This document shows positions 6,351 through 62,065 of a stretch of 64,000 bases of DNA, in pieces. Position numbers and translations under genes: made by a program. The notes under the pieces are model-generated. The model saw only the letters and a list, made by a program, of their open reading frames with translations, had not been told where the DNA came from and ran no database searches. The first letter of the stretch is position 1. Every line of letters begins with the position of its first letter. The stretch is taken from positions 7,100,197-7,164,196 of the forward strand of contig NC_090789.1 of NCBI RefSeq assembly GCF_040054535.1, written 5' to 3'. Source of the DNA: Antennarius striatus (taxonomy: Eukaryota; Chordata; Actinopteri; Lophiiformes; Antennariidae).

Positions 6351-8589
6351 ATATGTAGATGATCGTGGATGCAGGATCAGTAGCTTGTAATAGAATTAGA
6401 TGGAATTAATTTGAAACGCAAAAGCGAGGCAGAGATTAAATCACACACAAGCAGGCCTAAGTAATTTTATCGCCAGCAATGGGTACATTTAACGCAAGTA
6501 AACACTTTGGAAACCGGTTTTTCGTTTTTATGACCATCCTAGGTCCTTGATATGAGTGTTTTGTTGCTCGTGATGAGGTGTATGGGAAATCGCCAGTGCG
6601 TTCCCATTAAAGTAGACCTAATCGCAGTTTCATTCGGGTTATGATAACATTACAGTGTTAATTCAGCGTGAACCTTTCTAAATGAGATCTCCGGCTCTTT
6701 GTTAAGGTTTCAACAACCTCAATGTGACAGTACAGCGATGTGAATTCTCAGGGCGACTCACCTGGTTTAGTGAGGGGGATACTTTTTGGTCTTTGCTGCC
6801 ACCTACAGGTCAAATTGTGGTATGTCCTCCGCTTCATCCGAGCTGAAAAATGAGCTCAATATTTTCGCTTTGACTTGATTTTTTTTTAAACCTGTTTTCG
6901 ACATAATATGTAATTATATAATTTTTTAAATTTCAATTTATTTTATTTGATATGTCTGTGTTATTACTCTATTCATTGTATTCTATTCGTCTTGATTGTT
7001 CTTTGTCACTGGGGACATCTTGACCTGTCACAGTCGGAAAACTGCAGGTGTAAATAATAAAAAAAAAATCAATGAAGGCTGAATTGCGTTTATCTGTGGC
7101 AGGATTGTGTACGCTGTCACAACGTCACACTCTTGTGACTCTCTGGTTGAATTTGATGCAACAGTTTTTAGTAATAAATCAAGATTTCTGGAGTCTAAAA
7201 GGTTTTGTATTAAGCATGATTTCATGATTTCATACAAATTAAAAACAGAACAAAATAAGAAAAAACAAAATTAAAAAAGGAAGCAGCGATTCCATTGTAA
7301 TCAACATTCTAATCTGGTTTCTGGTGAAGGTGGTTGCTTGGAAACCTCATCTCATTTAAATGTCAGACCTATTGCTTTGGAGCATAATTATAGTTTACAT
7401 GTTAATGTGTAGTGGAAATAAACAAATCAATACATGCACTTATCAATCATATCTAACTGCATTTTTGTGTTTAAAACACAGCAGGGTTTTTGCATGTAAA
7501 ATAAGTTTCTCAATTCCGACGCAAAGAAGAAACACCCTTTGTACAGTGACCTTTAATATATATATATTTCAAACTCAGTACTGTATCATGTTTTGTCTGA
7601 AATGCTTTACTGAAGATCTTTGCTCAAGTTAATTCCTTGGTCCCATACATGAGACAAGCCAAAAAGCTGAAATACAATCAGACTTTGTCATGATTTAAAT
7701 GCCTACCTCCCCCTTGAGCCCTACACAGAGGTATTTTGTGCTCCCACTTTGATCACATGGAAGTAGCAATAATCAGAGAAAATACAGGCTCAGGACTGAC
7801 CTTCTCAACCCCTATATGATCAAAAGCATACACAGTTTGAGATCCATTAAAATGGAATGTAAAAAATTACATTGCCATTTAAGAGCATTAAAGCTTTGGG
7901 GTAAAGATGACTCCCAAAAGGCTTTACAGAGTAAGAACTCTGCAACACTCCCTTTTTAAGATGACCTTCATCACCTCTCATATGATATAAGGATGAAACA
8001 ATGCGGTGATTTAATGTTTTCTTCAACATGATTGTGTCTGTTCTCAGGAGTCTAATAGGGAGGCTTTTATTTGCATGTGTAATGAACAGATTGTAAAATT
8101 GTCCACTGTTAAAATGCATCCGAGGCCAACTGGGAGGTACTGTCCTTTATATTATCAACAAAATTTGTAAATACTGTCATGTTGTGTGGTATTAAAAGGA
8201 ATTGTGAAGCAATTTTAAAGAAGAACCCATTGGGGATTTTATATTCATAAATACAGTTATCTGTATTAAAAGGAATATCTCCAAAACATCCGAAATATCA
8301 TAGGATTTCAACACCTGGGATGAATATGCTGGTGTTAATGCAAAGAGAATTCATAGGAAGTTATAAAAAAATGTTTTAAGCTATAGATTCCACATTATCT
8401 GCTTAGCAGGTGCAACAAAAGATTGCAAGAATATAGGAAATAATGCTCTAATTATATTCGAGCGATAATGGGCCTGTGTAAATACAAGAAACTGTTTTCA
8501 AATTCTATATGATCCCACATGATACTTATTTATTTATACCTCTAATGTCGCACAGTCCGCTCTTAACAAAGCTTTACCTTTTCATATCT
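6351..8589. other. Non-coding, AT-rich DNA
   Basis: No gene seen. X-box-like GTTGCTTGGAAAC at 7,333-7,345. Confidence 0.5.
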
Positions 8590-8800
8590 GCCGGTGTCGT
8601 TGCATTTTCCGGTCGGTAGATGGCACACTTGAATGAATTATTGTTACTGGAACAGAGGCGCGTCCGTGACGCTCCAGGGAGCGCGCAGACGCGTTCCGCA
8701 TCCTCATAGATTCCGCCTCCGCGTGGCGTCTCGCCGCCGTTCCGTACCCGGGTGAAGAGTTCACGGTGCGGGCTCGTCGGCAGATGATCCGGGACCCATG
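8590..8800. promoter_or_regulatory. CpG-island-like patch
   Basis: I count 18 CpGs in the 120 bp from 8,641 to 8,760, within AT-rich flanks. No convincing coding frame crosses it. It could mark a promoter of a non-coding transcript or a gene lying beyond the window. Confidence 0.4.
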
Positions 8801-9118
8801 ACAGAATCTAATTTTATTTTGCAGAGCAAGAGAGATGTTATATTACTGGAATAAGTGACGGGACCGAAAGAAAGCATGCCTATAAACAAAAGTCACGGAC
8901 AGCCTCTCATTTATAACTATTAGGAACACTTAACCTTATGGTCAGGTTACGGTTATAGATAAATCCAGTAGCCACTTATACTGCGACATTTTATTGAGAG
9001 GCTGCACACTGAATCATTATTAGATTTTAAACACAACAGATATTTTATTGAGCCTATTTGCATCTTTTACCGTCCACTGCAACTTATGATGAAATAGACG
9101 TACTCACGTGGCCTTTCA

Positions 9119-29795: not shown

Positions 29796-32159
29796 GTCAG
29801 AGTTGATCACATGCACACATGCATTCACACATGTATAAGGATGAATGTACACACACACAACACACACTTAACCAACTCTGGCGACTCACCGGGATTATGG
29901 CTGTCTTCCAAAAGGCCACTGGGGCAATCTTCAAAGACACAAACATAAACAGCCTACAAAGCCAACACATTATAATCTTAGTCAGCAACATGGGAATAGC
30001 AGAGGAGAAAATGTCAGCGAGGACAACAACAGGAAGAAAAAAATGGGAACAAAATAAATAGGAAGTTAGTCAGTGGGAGATCAGGACTAATGAGTAAGAC
30101 AGATATACTGACAAATGGTGGAAAACAATAGACAGATGAAAAGACCGGAGAGGTGAGGAAGGCTGAAAGAAGAAGTGAAAGTGAGAGTTGGTAAATGAAA
30201 AAATCTGAGAAGAGATAATGAAAGAGAGAGAGGAGGAAGTGAGGGCCAAGGAGGGGATGAAGAGGTGAATCCGTAGGGATGGGGGTAAAGCTCTTGGTCA
30301 GCGGTTTCCACTGCGATGGTGGACAGGCCGGTTGACAGGATGAATAATTTAGGATGAGGTGTGGACATCGATCCCACAATGCACTTCTGCCTGACCACAT
30401 TTTCCTAAGCACATATTCACAGACACACACATTCAAACGCATCATCCTCAGCAGTTCCTCAGATCAGAGCTGACCTTTATCAAGCCGACATCCAGACAAA
30501 AAAAAACAAGTACGGATCTTTCCGTAGAAACATGAGTATGAATATTTAGATTCATTTAAAATGTGATATTTGATTAACATATTTAAGTCGCATTTAACAA
30601 GTTAATGTCGATTTCATGCAAATTATGGAAGCAAAAAAAAAACCCAGTACAAATATTTAAGCCATAAATAAGACAAATGCTTGTACATACATTTATACAT
30701 ATCTATGTCTTGTCCTCATGTTGTCAGACGCTGACCGATGCTAGCTTTCAGTAGTCTCCTCTGAATTGAGTCCTTCCTGTTTGGTCGACCAACTTCCTGT
30801 CTACTGCAACCTGATACTTCCTGTTTGAGTCAGATGCCTTTGACCCCATCAGCCTGTCATCCAAACCAAACACAACCACTTCCCTCTCATTTCACCAGTA
30901 GGAAAAAAAGAAATGAACATAATAGGAGCTAATTTCAACTACTTTGTTCAGATACTTTGCATCAAATAACTGATATTAATATTTTAGTAGTTTACTACAT
31001 TGCCGAGCTTGATATTACACATCAGATATGATGAACATCAACTTAAGTGGCAGCCGTCCTTTTCTTTTTCCTCTCTTTTTTTTCTTGTTACATTCCCCTC
31101 TGGCACAACATAGGATCATTTTTAACCCCATAGAACAATGTTTCTCCCAAATCTCTCTGGCTTTGCCGCACCTCTCTTCTTCATTCATCACACAGACTGA
31201 ACGGGTGACCGGGGAATGACCTCACCTCGAAGACGTGTGCACGTACACACACACGCGCACATACACACACACACACACACGCATTGTAAACACGTACAAA
31301 TACAAACTCTCACACACACAAATTGACAAACACGGCATAAACTCACACAAAAGCACGATTCATTTATCACAAACAATGGAAACCTTGGAACACATGCTCA
31401 AACAAACGTGTCTACACTCACGCACACACACACACTCACACATGGCGGTTCCTATCACATCCGTTACAGATGGGTTCTCCTCCTCCTCAGTCCTAAATGA
31501 ATATAAATATGTCTGTTTGACATCATTCATCTGCCAGAGAGCATTGCATTGACCACATTTGGCCTGAAGGGGCAGTGTTGCTCTCTGCACTGGCGAGAGG
31601 GGAAGGGAGAAAATACTAGTAGTAAAGTTGATCAAAGGGCACATAGTAAGGGTGATGCAAGGTAGTAAATTTTGTCTCAGTATACTTTGTGATTTTTTTT
31701 TCTTGAAGTTATTAGGCAGCCACACAAACAAGACTCCCAGCCTTTTTAAATACATTTCAGTTTGCAACTGTAGTCCCTAATCAAATCTGATCCTATCTCT
31801 TCCCTCTTGACAGTTTGCATTCACAATAAACCATTTGAAAACCCATTAGCTCCACTTTCCATAACCGTAAAGCCAACAGAAAACCGATATCATCAGTAAC
31901 AGTCCAGGAGAAGATGATGACCAGATGACAAGCGAGATGTGGACAGACCGAAGGAGCTGAGAGGAGGAAGAGATATCAGTGATGGGAACAAATTGAAACA
32001 AAATGGTGGGTGATATGCCACTGGGAGATTCTTAGAGAGGTGTCATGCAGGCCAGTGGTGAGAATTTAGAAAAGAAGGCATTTCATGATGTGGTGTTTAA
32101 GATAATGATCATCAGAAATTGAGAAAGAAAGTATCGCACCTGTTGAGAGCCATTTAAAA
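29792..32159. other. Non-coding DNA
   Basis: No gene seen. Three TTCCTGT (ETS-type) cores within 51 bp at 30,774-30,824. Scattered CA runs at 31,245-31,280. Confidence 0.5.
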
Positions 32160-32881
32160 AAGATGTTTGAGGTCATTTAAAGATCCTCTCAGTTATCATT
32201 TGAAAACCATTAAAGTTCACCAGATATGACCTGTGTCATTAGTCACCGCATCTTCATAATGTAGTATTTGCAAAGCCCTGAGGGAGGCGACAGTACTTTC
32301 AAAGTGAGCCTTCCCCTGCTGCAATCTGTGCTCCATATGTCATTAAGCCCATTAGGGAAACACTAGGTTAACATTACCGAGAGCCCCAACCGACATAAAA
32401 GCGCCGACTGACTTTGTGTCGCTTCCTCCCCTTTGCTGGCTGCCGATATTAACAAGCCATTGTCTTTTTCTCACCACTATGCTTTTTGAGCTGCATCCGC
32501 AATTTCCTCGCCTTGAGTCATTTCTCTTATTCTAAGAGCTTTTTATGCTTCTCCTTGTTTCACCTTCACTTTCCCTACAACCCACCATGGGGGGCTGTAA
32601 AAAAAAAAAAGATGTTGACTATTTTAGAAAACTCGTAGGCAGTGCCATCTGTCAAAATGAAGGAATGACAACCCATGCGACTGTCCTTCCTCTTGCTGTT
32701 TTGGATTTCAAAAAGTATAGGATACTGTATAAATGTCTAATAAAACAACAGGAACTTTGGGCGTGCATTTATGATTATGTGTCAAACTTAAAAACAGATG
32801 TTTAGATAGATCTAATCAAAATTGATCGATCACGTTGCTCCCTCCAGGAAAGCAGCGAACCAATACGGCGTGTTCACGTAG

Positions 32882-32898
32882 AGGTCAGGTGGAGGTCA
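32882..32898 (+). promoter_or_regulatory. Perfect DR5 retinoic acid response element
   Basis: AGGTCAggtggAGGTCA, the optimal DR5 with both half-sites AGGTCA. It lies in a CpG-containing, high-complexity block about 21.9 kb 3' of hoxa1a. A further GTTCAC half-site-like sequence lies at 32,871-32,876. Confidence 0.7.
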
Positions 32899-32986
32899 GC
32901 GCGGACTGTGATGCCTCCACTCAGCCCCCACTCCGTTGCCTGCCTCCTCCTTCTTCTCCATTCCTGTGACAAAGAGAGACCGTTTG

Positions 32987-33000
32987 GTTGCTAGGGAAAC
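32987..33000 (+). promoter_or_regulatory. RFX X-box-like motif
   Basis: GTTGCTAGGGAAAC fits the imperfect inverted-repeat X-box (GTTGCC..GGNAAC type) bound by RFX factors. It is 88 bp from the first DR5. Confidence 0.4.
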
Positions 33001-33473
33001 AGCCTTTTTCCGTGGCGATGTTGAAACACGTGGGGAAGGCAGGGCGGCTTTGTTTCGCCCTGTGATGAAGGATTCACCCTATGCATGTTTAATCACCAGA
33101 CTTATGGTCCCGAACCCAGCAGCCGAGACCATCCACCACAGCCTGATTATGTTCAATGAAGCTTCTGACACCGTCATTTTACCAGTTTTATCATGCTGTG
33201 CAGCTCCCACCGTGGGCACCTTCGCTATTGTTGCACAGGATTGCTGATGAGTACAGCTGAGACCACAGATAGTCAGACCAAACAAGGAGGGCACACAAGT
33301 CTCTCTTGCGGTAACCAAATTACAACTGGCCAAATAAACACACTCCCTTTTTGCAGACACACACTCTGAAACATACACAACACAGGACACACATTCATTT
33401 TTGTCTTTTCTTGTATCTCTGCACCCACCCACCACTGTTTGGCTTAGCACAGCAGTGGAAAAAAAAATGGCAG

Positions 33474-33487
33474 ATCACCATGGCAAC
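33474..33487 (-). promoter_or_regulatory. RFX X-box-like motif
   Basis: The minus strand reads GTTGCCATGGTGAT, close to the X-box GTTGCCATGGNAAC. It lies 46 bp from the DR5 at 33,534. Confidence 0.4.
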
Positions 33488-33533
33488 GGTGTGTGCCGTT
33501 CTGCTACAGCAGTGATGTATGTGGTGACACTTT

Positions 33534-33550
33534 TGACCCTCTAGTGAACT
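33534..33550 (-). promoter_or_regulatory. Perfect DR5 retinoic acid response element
   Basis: The plus strand reads TGACCCtctagTGAACT, so the minus strand reads AGTTCActagaGGGTCA. Both half-sites match RGKTCA with five-base spacing. It is 636 bp from the DR5 at 32,882, in opposite orientation. Confidence 0.65.
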
Positions 33551-33560
33551 CTGTAATGCA

Positions 33561-36104
33561 GGAGCTGTGCAGAATCCGGATAGACTGTGGATGCCCTGCC
33601 TATCCTGCTACTATAGCGTATCATATATAATGTTAGCTTTACATGACCAGGGCACCATGACAATAGATCCTGCACTGGCAAACAGCATCAGTGCTACATA
33701 CCTTTGTCTCAAAAGCAAAATAGTCTCAACAAAGTCTTCATCCACGACACAACCTGGCGCTTTAAGTATTACATATTAGCTGATGAGTGTGGATATATTT
33801 TTTATTCACTTCAGGTACACATTGGATTATATGATTATATGATTGGACAATTCTATCTACTTTCCCCAGGTAATGTAAACATGCAAAAGTGTTTTCTTGC
33901 ATTTTCCTCAAGCATTGGAGAGACAAATACAGATGGATATCATCTTTGTTCAACATCTTCACATTCATCTTGAAAGGCAAAGACAGTCTGCTGTGGATTC
34001 TGAGAGGACTCACGGTTCATTTGGATCTAACCATTTGTCTCTCGATTACATATGTAATTTATTATCACGCAACATAACATATATTCAGACCCTCTCTTGG
34101 TATTTATAAATCATACATACTGCCTCACACATAGAATGAGTTGAAAGCACATGATCTGAGGCAGGTTGTGTAAGTGGACACACAATGAGCCATATACTTT
34201 TCTTTTTGCACTCAAACACACGTGGGCTCACATGCACGGTTTTGTGATAAGACAAAAGAAAAAAGATTGTCTCTCATGCTTAAAACACATACATGATTTG
34301 TTTCCATGGAGAAACACAACCTTCAATTGACACTTGTCTCCACCTGTTAAGATGATTCTCCACACTTCCTCCCCCATCCCCCCACTGTATGTTCCATTGT
34401 CCACCACTAGGGGTGCTGCAGTTTAGCACAAGAGAAGCGCTCCCAAATCTGCCACAGCTGCTGCTGCTGCTTCTCTCTCTGAAGGAGGAGAGCTTGTTTC
34501 AGTAAATGCGGACAAGCAGACACCTTCTAAATCATTCACACTGGCCTTTTCTAAAATTAAAAAACAATTGGTTCCACATGGTTGCAGACGCATAGCAAAA
34601 ACATATATAATGTGGGATGTACAATGCATAATGTATAATGCAGACAAGTGACAATGCTAACACCAAAAATATGTTCTCAAAGACAAAGTGCAGCTCTTAA
34701 ATAAATTACTTTTTCAAAGGCATAGACTACAACAATCACAAAGAGAAAAGAAAGAGTAATGCATCGTCAGTGAGACACAAAGCATCGCCTGAGGTTTTAT
34801 ATTAGTTTTGCACTAACGTAATGTTTCTAATGTGTACTGCCTCTGCCACAGCCAAGAAAATGTTTTCCTTAGCTCCGACAAACGCAGATAGAGGAATTTT
34901 CCACCTGCAGCAAAAAGGAGAAAAGAAACAAAAGGAGAAAAGACATGACATATTGTGCTGCAGCTCTTCAGACCTGTTAGTCCAGGTCATAGTTTGGGTG
35001 GGTCATGACCTGTAAGATACACTCAGACCTGCCATACAGTGAAGAAGTCATGCTGCAAACAAGCAGTCTTGTACTGTACCTGTAAATACTCTACCTTGCA
35101 TAGTCGTTATTTATACACAAGTTGATTATTTTTACTGTTCGTTTAAATATAGATGATAATTTTGCTGGCTTGAGTAAATCTATAGGTTATAAAAAAGTCA
35201 CACTTACAGTTTATTGTAAAGCCCAGAGGAACATGCTTTCAAAGCAAATATCATGTGACAGTGACACAGTGAAAACGCCCATAATCCTAAAAAGATAATT
35301 TTTTTAATCCAAGGTTTGATCATCTAAAGCTGGATCACCTTTTTATTTATTATAACGAATCCTTTTTGCAAATTAGTCAGATTGGGTTATTCAAATAAAA
35401 TGAAGTAATTTCAATTGTAAAGTTGTTATATGTTAATTAATTAATAACTCAATTATGAATTCTTCAATCATTGTAACAATGAACAGTTTTATTTATTTAA
35501 TACTTTTTTCTGTGCCCTTTTCTTTGTTGTTAAGTCCTGCATCGACACTACACATGATGAGACTTAACAGCCAGTTTGGTTCTAAATCTGTGCTAGGCTG
35601 CTAACAACTAGCATTAAGCTATGATGGACTGTGGACTACAGAGGTAAGATCACTTTGTCGTAGTCCATGGCCTGAATTTCTTTTTTTTGACTGATCAGAT
35701 TTCCAATCTTCAGCCATATTTGACATCTACATCTTTTTTGAAACAACTTCGACTTTCCCATCTGTAAAGTAGCTTTGAACAACTTCAGCCAACTTATTTT
35801 GAAGACAAAATGAAGGCATATGCTGCAACTAGCTACACAATTGTGTCCAATTTTCAATATTACCATGTTTCTCTGGAATTACTATGATGATTATGGTTTT
35901 ATCTTGAGTAATACCACAAAATTGATATTCATCTTGCAGAAAATTGGTATTATCCTGCAACCTATCTGTTCTTCAAGTTCTGCATGTTTGTATATATCAC
36001 TGCATACATGTCTCAGGGACTGATGCTCATCATGTTTGGGGAACGTCCCCTCCACCCATGCACCCCTCCCTGTCTCTGTCCCCTGCCTGTGGTCCTGCCA
36101 CTGA
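33561..36104. other. Non-coding DNA
   Basis: No gene seen. Contains the palindrome at 35,000; very AT-rich from 35,100 to 35,520. Confidence 0.5.
35000..35011. promoter_or_regulatory. Palindromic nuclear-receptor site
   Basis: GGGTCATGACCT is an inverted repeat without spacer, one base from the thyroid-hormone palindrome AGGTCATGACCT. A further AGGTCA lies at 34,984-34,989. Confidence 0.35.
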
Positions 36105-47724: not shown

Positions 47725-47741
47725 GGGTCAAGCTGAGGTCA
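47725..47741 (+). promoter_or_regulatory. Perfect DR5 retinoic acid response element
   Basis: GGGTCAagctgAGGTCA. Both half-sites match RGKTCA with exactly five bases between. It lies 7.1 kb 3' of hoxa1a in a unique, GC-richer stretch (47,690-47,880) just after a long GT microsatellite, with ATTGG (inverted CCAAT) at 47,710-47,714. RAR/RXR heterodimers bind this class of site. Confidence 0.65.
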
Positions 47742-51409: not shown

Positions 51410-51960
51410 GGCAGGTTGGTTTGATAATTTGGCCCATCAAAGTTAAAAGAGCAGTTTGTTCAGCTGTCCCATGGCAGAGGTGTGGTTGGCACAAGACGCA
51501 CTCCTGTATTAAACCGCGCGTCAAGGACGCAACATGAATTCTGCGTCCAACTTCTGGGTCACCTCGTTAAAATCAAAAGCTTTTAACATCTTTTTCCTCC
51601 CTCACAAAGCCTTAATGGTTTTCGTCAAACATCTGTCATCGTCCATGTGTTTATCCAGAGGCCCTTATGGGAACCATCAGCCACGTGGGGCCAGATTGTG
51701 GAGGTCAGGCAAAGCCGAGGTTTGGGTTCTTTTTTTAGCATTTAGCAACTGGTGTGAAGGTGTTTTGGTCAAACAGGCCGTCGGAGCAGGGCTGTGGCCC
51801 CGCTGTTGAGGGGTTTGTTTGCCCAGTGTGATCTGTAAACTTTTGTTTAGGTGTGGGCGGTGATGTGACAACAAACTGTGACCGACGATTGACCCCGGAG
51901 TCTCTTTTGAGGATCAGCTGCGTTTCTAACACGTTTCCTGCGTAGCGCGTCAGGGACGGG
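51410..51960. promoter_or_regulatory. High-complexity block 3' of hoxa1a containing a near-perfect DR5
   Basis: About 550 bp of non-repetitive, CpG-containing sequence that stands out from AT-rich neighbours. It carries a CTGTCA MEIS/PREP motif (51,632-51,637) and, at 51,879-51,895, TGACCGacgatTGACCC, a DR5 on the minus strand with one mismatch. It begins 2.8 kb past the hoxa1a stop, comparable to the mouse Hoxa1 3' RARE enhancer. Conservation is not tested. Confidence 0.5.
51879..51895 (-). promoter_or_regulatory. DR5 RARE-like site, one mismatch
   Basis: Minus-strand reading GGGTCAatcgtCGGTCA. Eleven of twelve half-site positions fit RGKTCA-N5-RGKTCA, with C for R at the first base of the second half-site. 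Located 2.9 kb 3' of hoxa1a. Confidence 0.5.
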
Positions 51961-54793: not shown

Positions 54794-56198
54794 TCAGTTG
54801 GAGGCGTAAGGATCAGCCCCAGTGGATGATAGTGAGGAGGATGTGGGAGATGGACTAGAAGGAACTGACACAGATTTCTCAGAATCTACATCGTCTATTT
54901 TCTCTGGAATCCTCTCTCCTTGATCTGATGGAGTTTTGGTCGGAAGCAGTCCTTCTTTCTCTCTCTTCTTCTGCTTCATCCTACGGTTTTGGAACCAGAT
55001 TTTCACCTGAGTCTCATTTAGGTGCAGCGCAGCCGCGATTTCAACACGCCGCGCTCGGGTGAGGTACTTGTTGAAGTGGAACTCCTTTTCCAGCTCGGTC
55101 AGCTGCTTGGTGGTGAAGTTGGTTCTGACCGTGTTCGGCTGACCTCCATAACCGTACTCCCCAGACCTCCCTGTAAACACAAACATGTCAACTTAAACTT
55201 GCCAAACATTTGTTCAACTCATGAAATCTGGTTACATCACCCCGAAAAAAAAGAAACTTTCGAAGTCATTCCTGTCAGTTGCAGTTTAAACGCTATATTA
55301 CATGTAACTCTCCTGTTTACACTTTAATAGCTACAACAGTGCTTCTATATTTAGTTTAAATCACTTATATTAGCTATTAAATAGTGCACAATCAGATATA
55401 AACTATTAAATGCCGAAATTGAACTGATAACTTGGCTGAAAATGTCTTTCCATTCCCGTGTCTCAGATAGAAAACATCTGTCAACACCTCTGACTTTATA
55501 AGAAATAAAGCCATTATAAAAAATGTATAAAAAAATATAAAGCCATTATAGCCACTGCGTGTATTTGTCACGGGCACAGCATGGCACCCACCCGTTTTTG
55601 GAGGGTTTCTCTTGACTTTCATCCAGTCGAATGTCTGTGCAGAAGATGCGCCCTCAGACAAAGGTGAGCAGCAGGCTTCCAGGTGGACTCCGTGCAGCGG
55701 GGACAGTGGGTTTGTACACCCAGGAAAAGTTGTTGCTTGCTCGTGTCCACCTCCATACGCAGCGTGCGCATATTGTAGTTGACCCAAAGGGCCGGCACTG
55801 TAACCCTGGCGATGCTGAGAGACCATGGATGAGGAAATATTACCCGAATACATCAGCGGGCCGCACTGTGGGAATCCAGCTGTGGAATCTACTTCCTGGT
55901 TGAGCGCGTAATGGTTGTACGTAGTGCAGAAACTTTGGGGTCCATAGCTGGAGCCACAGGCCGGATGGGGCCCGTAAGTGAGACCCAGTGTGCTCGCTGT
56001 AGACTGGTATGACCCCGGCTGGTGAGAGATAGCATCAGGAGAAGCCCTGCTCGCCACGAAGCGCTCATCCGCCCCACAGTTGTTGACAGTGACAGCACAG
56101 GACTGGAATGTTGTAATCCCGTGGTCCGAGTGGAAAGCCCTGACGGAACATGAGCCACCTTCACCGCTCATTACCGAGTAGTCTAGGAAGCTACTCAT
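54794..56198 (-). CDS. hoxa1a: Hoxa1a homeodomain transcription factor (two exons)
   Basis: Exon 1 runs 56,198 down to 55,592 and exon 2 runs 55,170 down to 54,794. They are joined across a 421-bp phase-1 intron with donor ACGG|GTGGGT and acceptor TTTACAG|GG. The product is 327 residues, against about 335 for human HOXA1. The start is fixed by an in-frame TAG 15 nt upstream. Visible parts are the N-terminus [12 protein letters not shown], a HOXA1-type ITTFQSCAV block, the PBX-binding hexapeptide FDWMK (about residues 190-194) and the homeodomain (about 214-273, recognition helix [13 protein letters not shown]). A Ser-rich C-terminal tail ends in DPYASN. Human HOXA1 has a long His tract that is absent here. 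The family comprises nuclear, DNA-binding Hox1 factors that act with PBX/MEIS partners and specify rhombomeres 4-5 and early hindbrain. HOXB1 is excluded by the N-terminal match. The 'a' suffix is inferred from linkage to hoxa2. Confidence 0.97.
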
Positions 56199-56206: not shown

Positions 56207-56610
56207 TGTTCTACCGGGGGGCCGAGGGACCGTCCAGTCTCTAATCACCCGCTGATCTCTTCCTCTCTGTTACCCTGATTGACCGTGCCAACCCTCACCT
56301 ACACTACGTCCTTATCAACGGGAGGATGGGCGTGAGCCGGCCGATATCAATGAACGGGCGCTGTCACGTGGACCTGGGTCAGCCAGTGAGATACTTGTCC
56401 TTATCCCCTTAACTGGTGACAGATTGGTGTTTGAGTGGCTATTTAAATTCCAGGCGCTCGTCGATCAAGGTGACGCGCGTCGCCACTAATGTATTGGCCG
56501 AGTAAACAATGAGCTGGGAGTCAGACGGTGGTGGACAGCTCCGGGGTCGCATGACAAGCGGAGAACTGCAAACACGGCGTCCTCTAAAGCCCCGCTGTGC
56601 AATCTTATGC
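56199..56610 (-). promoter_or_regulatory. hoxa1a promoter-proximal region
   Basis: This GC- and CpG-rich, high-complexity sequence lies directly upstream of the hoxa1a start. It contains TGATTGACCG (56,276-56,285, PBX-like), CTGTCACGTG (56,361-56,370, MEIS/PREP overlapping an E-box), TGACAG (56,417-56,422) and a TATA-like ATTTAAAT (56,441-56,448) about 245 bp from the start codon. The extent is judged from sequence complexity; promoter status is inferred. Confidence 0.5.
56441..56448 (-). promoter_or_regulatory. TATA-like box candidate for hoxa1a
   Basis: ATTTAAAT in an otherwise GC-rich setting, about 245 bp upstream of the start codon. It would give a 5' UTR of roughly 210 nt. No transcript evidence is available. 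Confidence 0.25.
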
Positions 56611-56845
56611 CCCCGGGGAAGATTGGCGTTTTACCCTCTGCAACCTGTCCACGAGAAGGACGTGTCCGTGTGACTCAGGTATGGTATTTTAGGAATATAC
56701 GGGAGAGTTGATGTAAAAGCAGCTTGTGTGTCCGTCTGTGCGCGCACACCGTTATACTTGTCTGTCGTCGTCCGCGCGTAATGACGCAAAATGGTACAAA
56801 ATATTTCAGTGTCATTCTCCATTCTCTCCGGGATGTATGATAGTT

Positions 56846-56847
<2 letters not shown>

Positions 56848-56915
<68 letters not shown>
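56848..56915. repeat. (GT)n microsatellite
   Basis: About 34 units in the hoxa1a upstream region. Confidence 0.95.
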
Positions 56916-59234: not shown

Positions 59235-59895
59235 GCAGCCTCATAACCAGAGCAGGCAGCTACTACTGCTGCTGCCGCCGAGGCAGAGCCGTGTTTAAAC
59301 AAGCTATAAAAATGAATTATTACCAAACGAATGCATAAACTCAGCCCCTTTTAGTGCAGGAGTTGGGTAGTCCCGTATGAAAATGTAAGTGGGGTTTTAT
59401 TTGTGCACATTACGCCACAATTGGTCTCCTTAATGTCCGTCTCATTCATGCCAGGGAATGATTTATGAGCTCCTGAAGGCAAACATGGTTCGGGCATTTG
59501 CCTGCAACATGCATACAATGTTAAGAGCCCTGTCATTGAGAGCCGTATTTGTTTTCACTCAGCAAAATGCTAAAATTTTAAGGCAGAAATAAAATATAAG
59601 CATCTGGGCATCTGCACGTTTATGTATTTAAATAAATTTCAGAAAGTAAAAGCCACATTTAGGGTCGACAACCGATAATTATCTGCTATCTTGTGGACAT
59701 GTACACTTTTATCATTAAAAAAGTTTAATTTATAATTAATAGAATGAAAAGACTTCTTGTATTTGTGTAAACATTTTGAAATAATATATCTATAAAATAA
59801 GTTGTAATTAAACTTTTTAATAGAATATAAAAGTGTGTGCATTCAAATCACAACGCGCATCATACCATTTATACACAATGCCAACCTGTTGAGAA

Positions 59896-60360: not shown

Positions 60361-62065
60361 TTAGTAGTTCAGATGTTGTAGGTCGATTGTAGTCAGGGAC
60401 TCCGAGAAAAAATAGAAACTCTCGGTGGATATGTCCACGGGGCTGTCCAGAGACTCCGACAAGCTCGGAGAGGCTGCATCGGAGAGCTGTAGGCAGGAAT
60501 CCGAGGAGAAAGGCTGAAAATCGTGTATAGAAACATCCAGGGCCGCTGGACTATCGCCATTGTCCGGGCCAGATGCCGAGCCTGGCCCCATTGTTGACAT
60601 GCATCCCGGAACAGTGGGTGACGGGTTGGGAAAATGTTTCAGATTTTTGTCATTGCTGTTCAACGGCGCAACAGCAAATCCCATGGACTCTCCATTGTGG
60701 AGCTGCTGTGTGGCTCCATGAGAGTTGTTCTGAAAGGAGCAGGTATCTCTCTCCAGAAGGGCCCCACTCCGGTCGAACAAGGGGCCTTCGTCCTCCTCCT
60801 CGCTGTGGATGCCGTCCTCCTCCGCGCCCGCTCCTTTCCCCTCTCCGTTGTGATTCTCCTTGCTCTGGGTTTGCCGCTTGTGTTTCATGCGCCGGTTTTG
60901 GAACCAGACTTTGACCTGTCTTTCGGTCAGATCCAACAGGGCCGCTATTTCCACCCTCCTCGGCCGACACAGATACTTGTTGAAGTGGAACTCTTTCTCC
61001 AGCTCCAGCAGCTGCGTGTTGGTGTACGCGGTCCTCAGCCGACGGGAGCCCCCTCCTCCCCCGGCGCTCTCCACAATCTCAGGCGAGCCTGGAAAAACAA
61101 GAACCGGAATGTGAATAAAAAAAGGAGAGCAGTTTCCCTGCCCCGCTGCCCGTGAAACTAATGTTATGGCTCTCACAGGTCACTAGACAGTATCTTATAA
61201 CACACTGCAGCAAAATGGCCGCTGGAGCCACTGACCCAGCCTTATAGCCAGTAAACAATGTATCAAAATAAAAAAATAAAAAAAATCATCCCAGCGTATA
61301 TATCAGATTGCTTCACATAGAAAATAAAATACGACAATGCACTATAAACGCAGTGAGGTCCACGCTGGCTCCGGATAGTAATGAATGCTCCAGCTGCCCT
61401 CCACGGCAACGGCACTCCATCACTCTTCATTACTGTCACACATCAAAACTCTGCCACGGCTAAGGGAATAAATCATCTCACATTGTCAAACTTTACCCAA
61501 AGTTTTTTTTAAATTGTTATTATTATTATTATTATTATTATTAGATTCATTCACAACTAAGGAGAAACCATAAATCTGTCATCGCAAAATCTCTCCGAAC
61601 TATTTTTTATGGAAAGGCCTCAGCACTTGAGCTCCTGTTACAGCAACAGATAGTAAACACCCTCTGCAGTAAAAAAAAAATGCTTTGAAATCACCCACCT
61701 TTCGGGGAAAAGCACACAGACGGTCCATTGGAGATGGTGGTAGCGGTGGAGGTCGGCAGGTGGTTCCTCTTGGAGGCTTTCTTCTCCCGCATCCAAGGGT
61801 ACTCCGGGGGTAAGGAGGCTGTGGGCAGCGGGCTGCATCCGTCGGGGCTGTGCCTGGGCCGGCCGTGCCGCGGATGGCTGCCCGGATTTAGGCTGGGAAT
61901 GGTCTGCTCAAAGGGAGGAGGAATCAGTGTCGGGCGTGAAAGCGTCGAGCTCTTGATTGATGAACTTTGAAATGAATCAGCGACAGGGGGGAAAGATGTC
62001 AGGCACTCAGCAAGCGACGGCTGACTATTGATAAAACCGCTCTCTCGCTCGAATTCGTAATTCAT
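60361..62065 (-). CDS. hoxa2a: Hoxa2a homeodomain transcription factor (two exons)
   Basis: Exon 1 runs 62,065 down to 61,699 and exon 2 runs 61,088 down to 60,361. They are separated by a 610-bp phase-1 intron with donor AAAG|GTGGGT and acceptor TTCCAG|GC. The product is 364 residues (human HOXA2 has 376) with no stop or frameshift. The start gives [17 protein letters not shown], the family N-terminus. The hexapeptide YPWM is at about 89-92. A glycine run (132-136) leads into the homeodomain at about 137-196, with recognition helix [14 protein letters not shown]. The C-terminus ends [10 protein letters not shown], as in HOXA2. It is a nuclear transcription factor that gives second-pharyngeal-arch neural crest and rhombomeres 2-5 their identity. 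It lies 4.16 kb upstream of hoxa1a in the same orientation, the normal cluster order. Zebrafish and medaka hoxa2a are reported as degenerate or pseudogenised, so the intact frame here is informative. Confidence 0.97.
61089..61698 (-). promoter_or_regulatory. hoxa2a intron with PBX/HOX- and MEIS/PREP-type sites (candidate rhombomere-4 enhancer)
   Basis: The intron carries two clusters. The first is the PBX-HOX-like TGATGGAGTG (minus strand, 61,413-61,422) with MEIS/PREP CTGTCA at 61,433-61,438. The second is minus-strand TGACAGATTTATGG (61,568-61,581), in which a TGACAG site abuts AGATTTATGG, a match to the bipartite WGATNNATNN form. In mouse the Hoxa2 intron holds a rhombomere-4 enhancer built from PBX-HOX and PREP/MEIS sites, so position and content agree. 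An (ATT)n tract lies at 61,517-61,542. Function is inferred from position and motifs only. Confidence 0.5.

Follow-up and report, generated by a model that had tools for sequence, protein, structure and literature searches.

A perfect DR5 in conserved, apparently non-coding DNA 22 kb 3′ of frogfish hoxa1a is a candidate distal retinoic acid response element

The 3′ side of mouse Hoxa1 carries a DR5-type retinoic acid response element (RARE) described as GGTTCA CCGAA AGTTCA (PMC7259794). Heater is reported about 50 kb 3′ of mouse Hoxa1, flanked by the RAR/RXR-bound sites H-AR1 and H-AR2 (PMC4510006), and retinoic acid (RA) induction of Hoxa1 is described as requiring a distal enhancer 150 kb downstream (PMC6649716). 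At the zebrafish hoxb cluster, a conserved RAR-bound site of DR5 type is reported in intron 4 of skap1, 25 kb downstream of the cluster, and the element drives RA-dependent GFP in neural tube and gut with the highest level in posterior hindbrain (PMC8608873). A review of Hox RAREs found none that was obviously homologous to the Hoxa1 element among the fish examined, suggesting that it may have been lost there, and notes an uncertain 3′ DR5, likely at zebrafish hoxa1a, that is opposite in sense to that of other vertebrates (PMC4009813). The conserved-sequence survey of teleost Hox clusters is described as extending, as a rule, only 3 kb beyond each end, and a site at 22 kb would for that reason fall outside it (PMC2080641). 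No title or abstract opening in the literature searched describes the frogfish element presented here, and its 17-base sequence occurs in none of the full texts searched, a collection that mostly excludes subscription papers. As a distal 3′ Hox RARE the site would belong to an already known kind and add an instance to it, with a function predicted from its sequence; a conserved distal DR5 beyond hoxa1a is a definite, testable candidate for RA input to a fish HoxAa cluster.

The window analysed is a stretch of 64,000 nucleotides of DNA from the striated frogfish, Antennarius striatus. It contains the two-exon hoxa1a coding region at 54794..56198 on the minus strand, located by ORFs and a protein match (100% identity over 327 aa to A. 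striatus Hox-A1a, the next listed protein reaching 90%) and proposed as the target of the element, together with the hoxa2a coding region at 60361..62065 on the same strand, a possible further target recognized by homeodomain ORFs and named from sequence and position. Positions 32882..32898 of the plus strand read AGGTCAggtggAGGTCA, a direct repeat of two RGKTCA half-sites, both exact AGGTCA, spaced by 5 bp (AGGTCA ggtgg AGGTCA), which is the proposed RAR/RXR site. The first-pass annotation had reported this sequence with its coordinates, strand and spacing, all of which were exact on direct reading, and had placed it about 22 kb 3′ of hoxa1a; the distance measured from the hoxa1a stop codon to the end of the DR5 at 32898 is 21,896 bp. 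The DR5 runs opposite in sense to hoxa1a. That annotation had overlooked two further DR5 sites, at 33534-33550 and 47725-47741, and a degenerate half-site, TGTTCA, at 32871..32876 on the plus strand, 11 bp upstream. Since this half-site keeps the same 11-bp spacing, three half-sites stand in a row. The DR5 itself consists of an 11-bp unit repeated in tandem, GTAGAGGTCAG GTGGAGGTCAG, preceded by a degraded third copy; it may have originated by local duplication, an event that would predate the split of the lineages compared below if the DNA of those relatives agrees. The spacer also forms a CAGGTG E-box (32886-32891; 41 such hexamers occur in the window) that overlaps the first half-site, and at which a factor of ZEB/SNAIL type could compete.

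Compared with the described systems, the frogfish site resembles the skap1 element in being of DR5 type, in lying in conserved non-coding DNA and in being about as far beyond the 3′ end of its Hox cluster. However, the skap1 element is intronic, RAR-bound and reporter-active, whereas the frogfish site is a candidate recognized by its sequence, and a search of the window for SKAP2 gave no significant match or exon (best E 2.4). SKAP2 may have been lost from this neighbourhood or may be located beyond the window. The site is likened by description to the flanks of Heater, both being direct-repeat RAREs in the distal HoxA 3′ flank, but receptor occupancy and RA-induced transcripts are reported for mouse Heater while the frogfish site is a predicted RARE. 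With the mouse Hoxa1 3′ RARE it shares a DR5 arrangement on the Hoxa1 3′ side, but its half-sites, spacer and distance of 22 kb differ; all three RGKTCA DR5 sites in the window depart from GGTTCA CCGAA AGTTCA and 32882 is 21,896 bp away, so that it does not correspond to the proximal Hoxa1 3′ RARE. Like the uncertain zebrafish hoxa1a DR5, as far as its published description allows comparison, both 32882 and 47725 run in the sense opposite to hoxa1a.

The second and third RGKTCA DR5 sites were found by motif search. AGTTCA ctaga GGGTCA lies on the minus strand at 33534..33550, 0.64 kb from the first, and GGGTCA agctg AGGTCA on the plus strand at 47725..47741, 7,053 bp 3′ of the hoxa1a stop codon. 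The latter is, from its sequence, a candidate for the proximal Hoxa1 RARE in fish and, at 7 kb, a better positional candidate for a match to the mouse Hoxa1 3′ RARE than 32882 at 22 kb. When the window was ranked with a RARE matrix built from 12 mouse DR5 sequences (one present twice, from a source table that is possibly incomplete; PMC7259794), 47725 came first, 32882 second and 33534 fourth. Third in this ranking was GGGTCA atcgt CGGTCA at 51879-51895 on the minus strand, about 2.9 kb 3′ of hoxa1a, in which one half-site breaks the RGKTCA rule.

These motifs were compared with chance expectation. When the window was dinucleotide-shuffled 1,000 times, a strict AGGTCA DR5 turned up in 1.1% of the resulting sequences, at least one strict repeat of the DR1, DR2 or DR5 class in 3.5% and any strict DR0-DR8 in 10.9%, and a single strict DR5 is therefore only moderately unusual. 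The relaxed RGKTCA DR5 occurs three times in the window against a mean expectation of 0.236, and at least three were found in 1 of 1,000 dinucleotide shuffles. In a separate set of 100 shuffles the mean was 0.29 and one shuffle reached three (it had four); under an order-4 Markov model of the window the mean was 0.07, and none of 200 sequences reached three. Among spacings 0-8 the excess is confined to 5: counted from spacing 0 upward, the RGKTCA direct repeats number 0, 0, 0, 0, 0, 3, 0, 0 and 1, and over spacings 0-1000 just 5 and 78 reach three repeats. Chance accounts poorly for the DR5 at 32882 together with this excess.

The DNA around the site had been characterized as a unique, CpG-bearing block in a gene-free flank. 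Uniqueness holds within the window, where blastn of the DR5 block returned, besides itself, one match of 23 bases (E 0.1), and the CpG content is modest: 18 CpG in 32751-33150, observed/expected 0.71, with flank values per 400 bases averaging 6.75 (95th percentile 16, 99th percentile 23). The block ranks 11th among the 25 CpG peaks listed, tied with three others. The absence of genes is borne out for SKAP2, for SNX10, CBX3 and HNRNPA2B1 (no significant match in the window) and for 10 picked ORFs of the 68 listed, none of which reached the Pfam cut-off (one sub-cut-off match, E 0.03), but this stops short of proof for the entire flank. A tandem-repeat scan of 20000-56000 in the 3′ flank turned up numerous microsatellites of CA/TG and ATAG type. 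A repeat or transposon origin of the block was considered and rejected, the block being single copy in the window and 32700-33700 containing no repeat of at least 12 bases. No CTCF core was present in 32400-33700. Within the conserved block, 32987-33000 is an X-box-like sequence of RFX type, GTTGCTAGGGAAAC, one of 6 such pattern matches in the window. A palindromic sequence at 32823-32832, TGATCGATCA, 50 bp from the DR5, matches the PBX-HOX pattern TGATNNAT, a common one with 70 occurrences in the window.

Since gene prediction also yields meaningless ORFs in non-coding DNA, the predicted proteins of relatives were used to read conservation, at the DR5 block only and as translations. The query ORF, 32912-33244, starts 14 bp past the DR5 and thus excludes it. 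It matched 14 predicted proteins (13 lgn, 1 ena) with 57-82% identity and E values from 3.1e-45 to 2.7e-19, from relatives that are themselves related to one another. The outermost ends of the translated matches delimit a block of about 550 bp at 32781..33334, to which no strand is assigned. Eight of the 14 proteins (130-190 aa) extend upstream across the DR5 in two reading frames; the other six start downstream. Over the DR5, the five proteins in frame A read EVRWRS (two, as in frogfish), EVRLRS (two) or EVRWSS (one), and the three in frame B read RGQVEVS, matching the frogfish DNA. All eight relatives reaching the site are compatible, in the correct register, with RGKTCA-N5-RGKTCA, compared with 0.26% of random draws of 14-residue stretches. 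This compatibility is permissive, only 0.1-0.7% of codon choices for the relatives' peptides spelling a DR5, and two offset controls were also compatible (1 of 24 for P0129 and 1 of 23 for P0131). At the third half-site, 32871-32876, NGKTCA is compatible in seven of the eight relatives that reach it.

Codons identical to those of frogfish were found in 48 of 51 comparisons over the DR5 versus 168 of 317 over the flanks of the same alignments, rows that are not independent and that include a 14-residue stretch of P0133 aligned by hand, tblastn having put this protein in another frame. Of the six-codon windows that all five frame-A proteins span, the one over the DR5 is the most highly conserved (27 of 30 cells); one window with only 8 cells scores above it. 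Other stretches of the block are also conserved. The conservation to which the first-pass annotation had looked for a check is thus found for the block, with a compatible DR5 in all eight relatives reaching it, in organisms that are likely to be related fish. When the ORF that spans the DR5 (32806-32994) was used as query, no matches were found among proteins of approximately 34-108 aa (0.55-1.75 times the query); this is no evidence against conservation because that length range excludes all eight DR5-reaching proteins. Searches for DNA-level relatives in prokaryotic and viral contig collections gave 17 and 14 pattern matches, none confirmed by tblastn, and a near-exact DR5 pattern at 9 loci in viral contigs was taken as chance.

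Among plus-strand matches to the window with E <= 0.01, those of 12 of the 14 proteins are spread over two or three frames, with switch points that differ between the proteins; three of these 12 frame switches (P0121, P0128 and P0132) rest on matches overlapping in the protein. Five of the 14 read through codons that are stops in frogfish. No Pfam family was detected at E <= 1 in the six matching proteins scanned; a search of 31500-34500 against Rfam likewise returned nothing at E <= 1. The frame switching among the matches indicates that it is the DNA, rather than a protein, that has been conserved, and the simplest reading of 32781-33334 is that of a conserved non-coding element under DNA-level constraint.

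The motif, its excess over chance, its location and the DNA-level conservation of the surrounding block are observed, and a perfect DR5 in non-coding DNA kept by several genomes is probably a distant Hox switch of known kind. The reading that we favour, with moderate confidence, is that the site at 32882 is a RARE within a conserved non-coding distal RAR/RXR enhancer of the HoxAa 3′ flank that acts on anterior HoxAa genes. An RAR/RXR heterodimer would bind both AGGTCA half-sites; its response to ligand would be to hold corepressors at the DR5 without retinoic acid and to recruit coactivators with it. The predicted enhancer activity would then raise transcription of anterior HoxAa genes, the most likely targets, across approximately 22 kb, with looping and a tissue of action both presumed: of hoxa1a first, and possibly of hoxa2a, hoxa3a or a HOTAIRM1-like RNA. 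The proposal of a distal enhancer for hoxa1a/hoxa2a made in the first-pass annotation is strengthened by the conserved DNA and by the DR5 being its best-conserved part (among windows covered by the five frame-A relatives), but its choice of target calls for caution. Zebrafish hoxb1b is described as the functional analogue of mouse Hoxa1 in the hindbrain (PMC4009813, PMC4061917), so the element may chiefly serve hoxa2a, hoxa3a or a HOTAIRM1-like RNA, whether in place of hoxa1a or alongside it. More tentatively, and on balance doubtfully, teleost HoxAa may have kept RA control via a conserved DR5 enhancer, distally placed and with three half-sites repeating every 11 bp, perhaps a remnant of an ancestral HOXA/HOXB 3′ RARE once located in a SKAP gene.

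Repeats of AGGTCA are common to many receptors, and the block could be a conserved enhancer in which the AGGTCA pair serves mainly other nuclear receptors (COUP-TF/NR2F, or NR4A with RXR), or else an RAR/RXR silencer. The CAGGTG E-box made by the spacer, overlapping the first half-site, fits such a role, as does the report that mouse has RARE silencers beside RARE enhancers (PMC7259794). However, of the repeat spacings 5 is the one most closely associated with RAR/RXR, and it is at 5, not at 1 or 2, that the window shows its excess; we consider these alternatives unlikely while worth keeping in mind.

The RFX-like X-box, the PBX-HOX-like site and the further conserved stretches of the block would fit a block that served another purpose (other factors, an exon of a non-coding RNA or a different gene) and in which the DR5 were incidental or disused, and the mouse Hoxa1 3′ flank is reported to yield transcripts (PMC4510006). 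Against an incidental DR5 stands the codon identity over the site, which within the stretch covered is well above that of its flanks (48/51 against 168/317), and this explanation appears quite improbable.

A chance origin of the DR5 in DNA under no constraint, perhaps by an 11-bp tandem duplication, draws on the repeat structure of the site and on the shuffles, 1.1% of which had a strict DR5 and 10.9% some strict DR0-DR8; the conservation of the DR5 in relatives (eight of eight compatible) largely refutes it, the DR5 excess being moreover specific to one spacing, and it is very unlikely. A protein-coding exon in which the DR5 is kept for its encoded amino acids is the least probable of all, the in-frame match of 32984-33244 in 14 of 14 proteins being outweighed by the multiple frames of 12 of them, the frogfish stops crossed by five, the use of two different frames over the DR5 itself and the lack of any Pfam family at E <= 1 in the six scanned.

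Two further features of the window were recorded. On the plus strand between hoxa1a and hoxa2a, antisense in orientation to both, an Rfam search matched HOTAIRM1_2 at 59268-59494 with 69.2 bits (gathering threshold 37; E 5.4e-07); by its sequence this teleost HoxAa cluster appears to hold a conserved region resembling HOTAIRM1. About 46 kb 3′ of hoxa1a, 8501-8900 contains 32 CpG per 400 bases (observed/expected 1.33), tying with 56451-56850 for the window maximum, and includes a DR2-like GGGTGA ag AGTTCA at 8750; this region is possibly the promoter of an unrecognised transcript.
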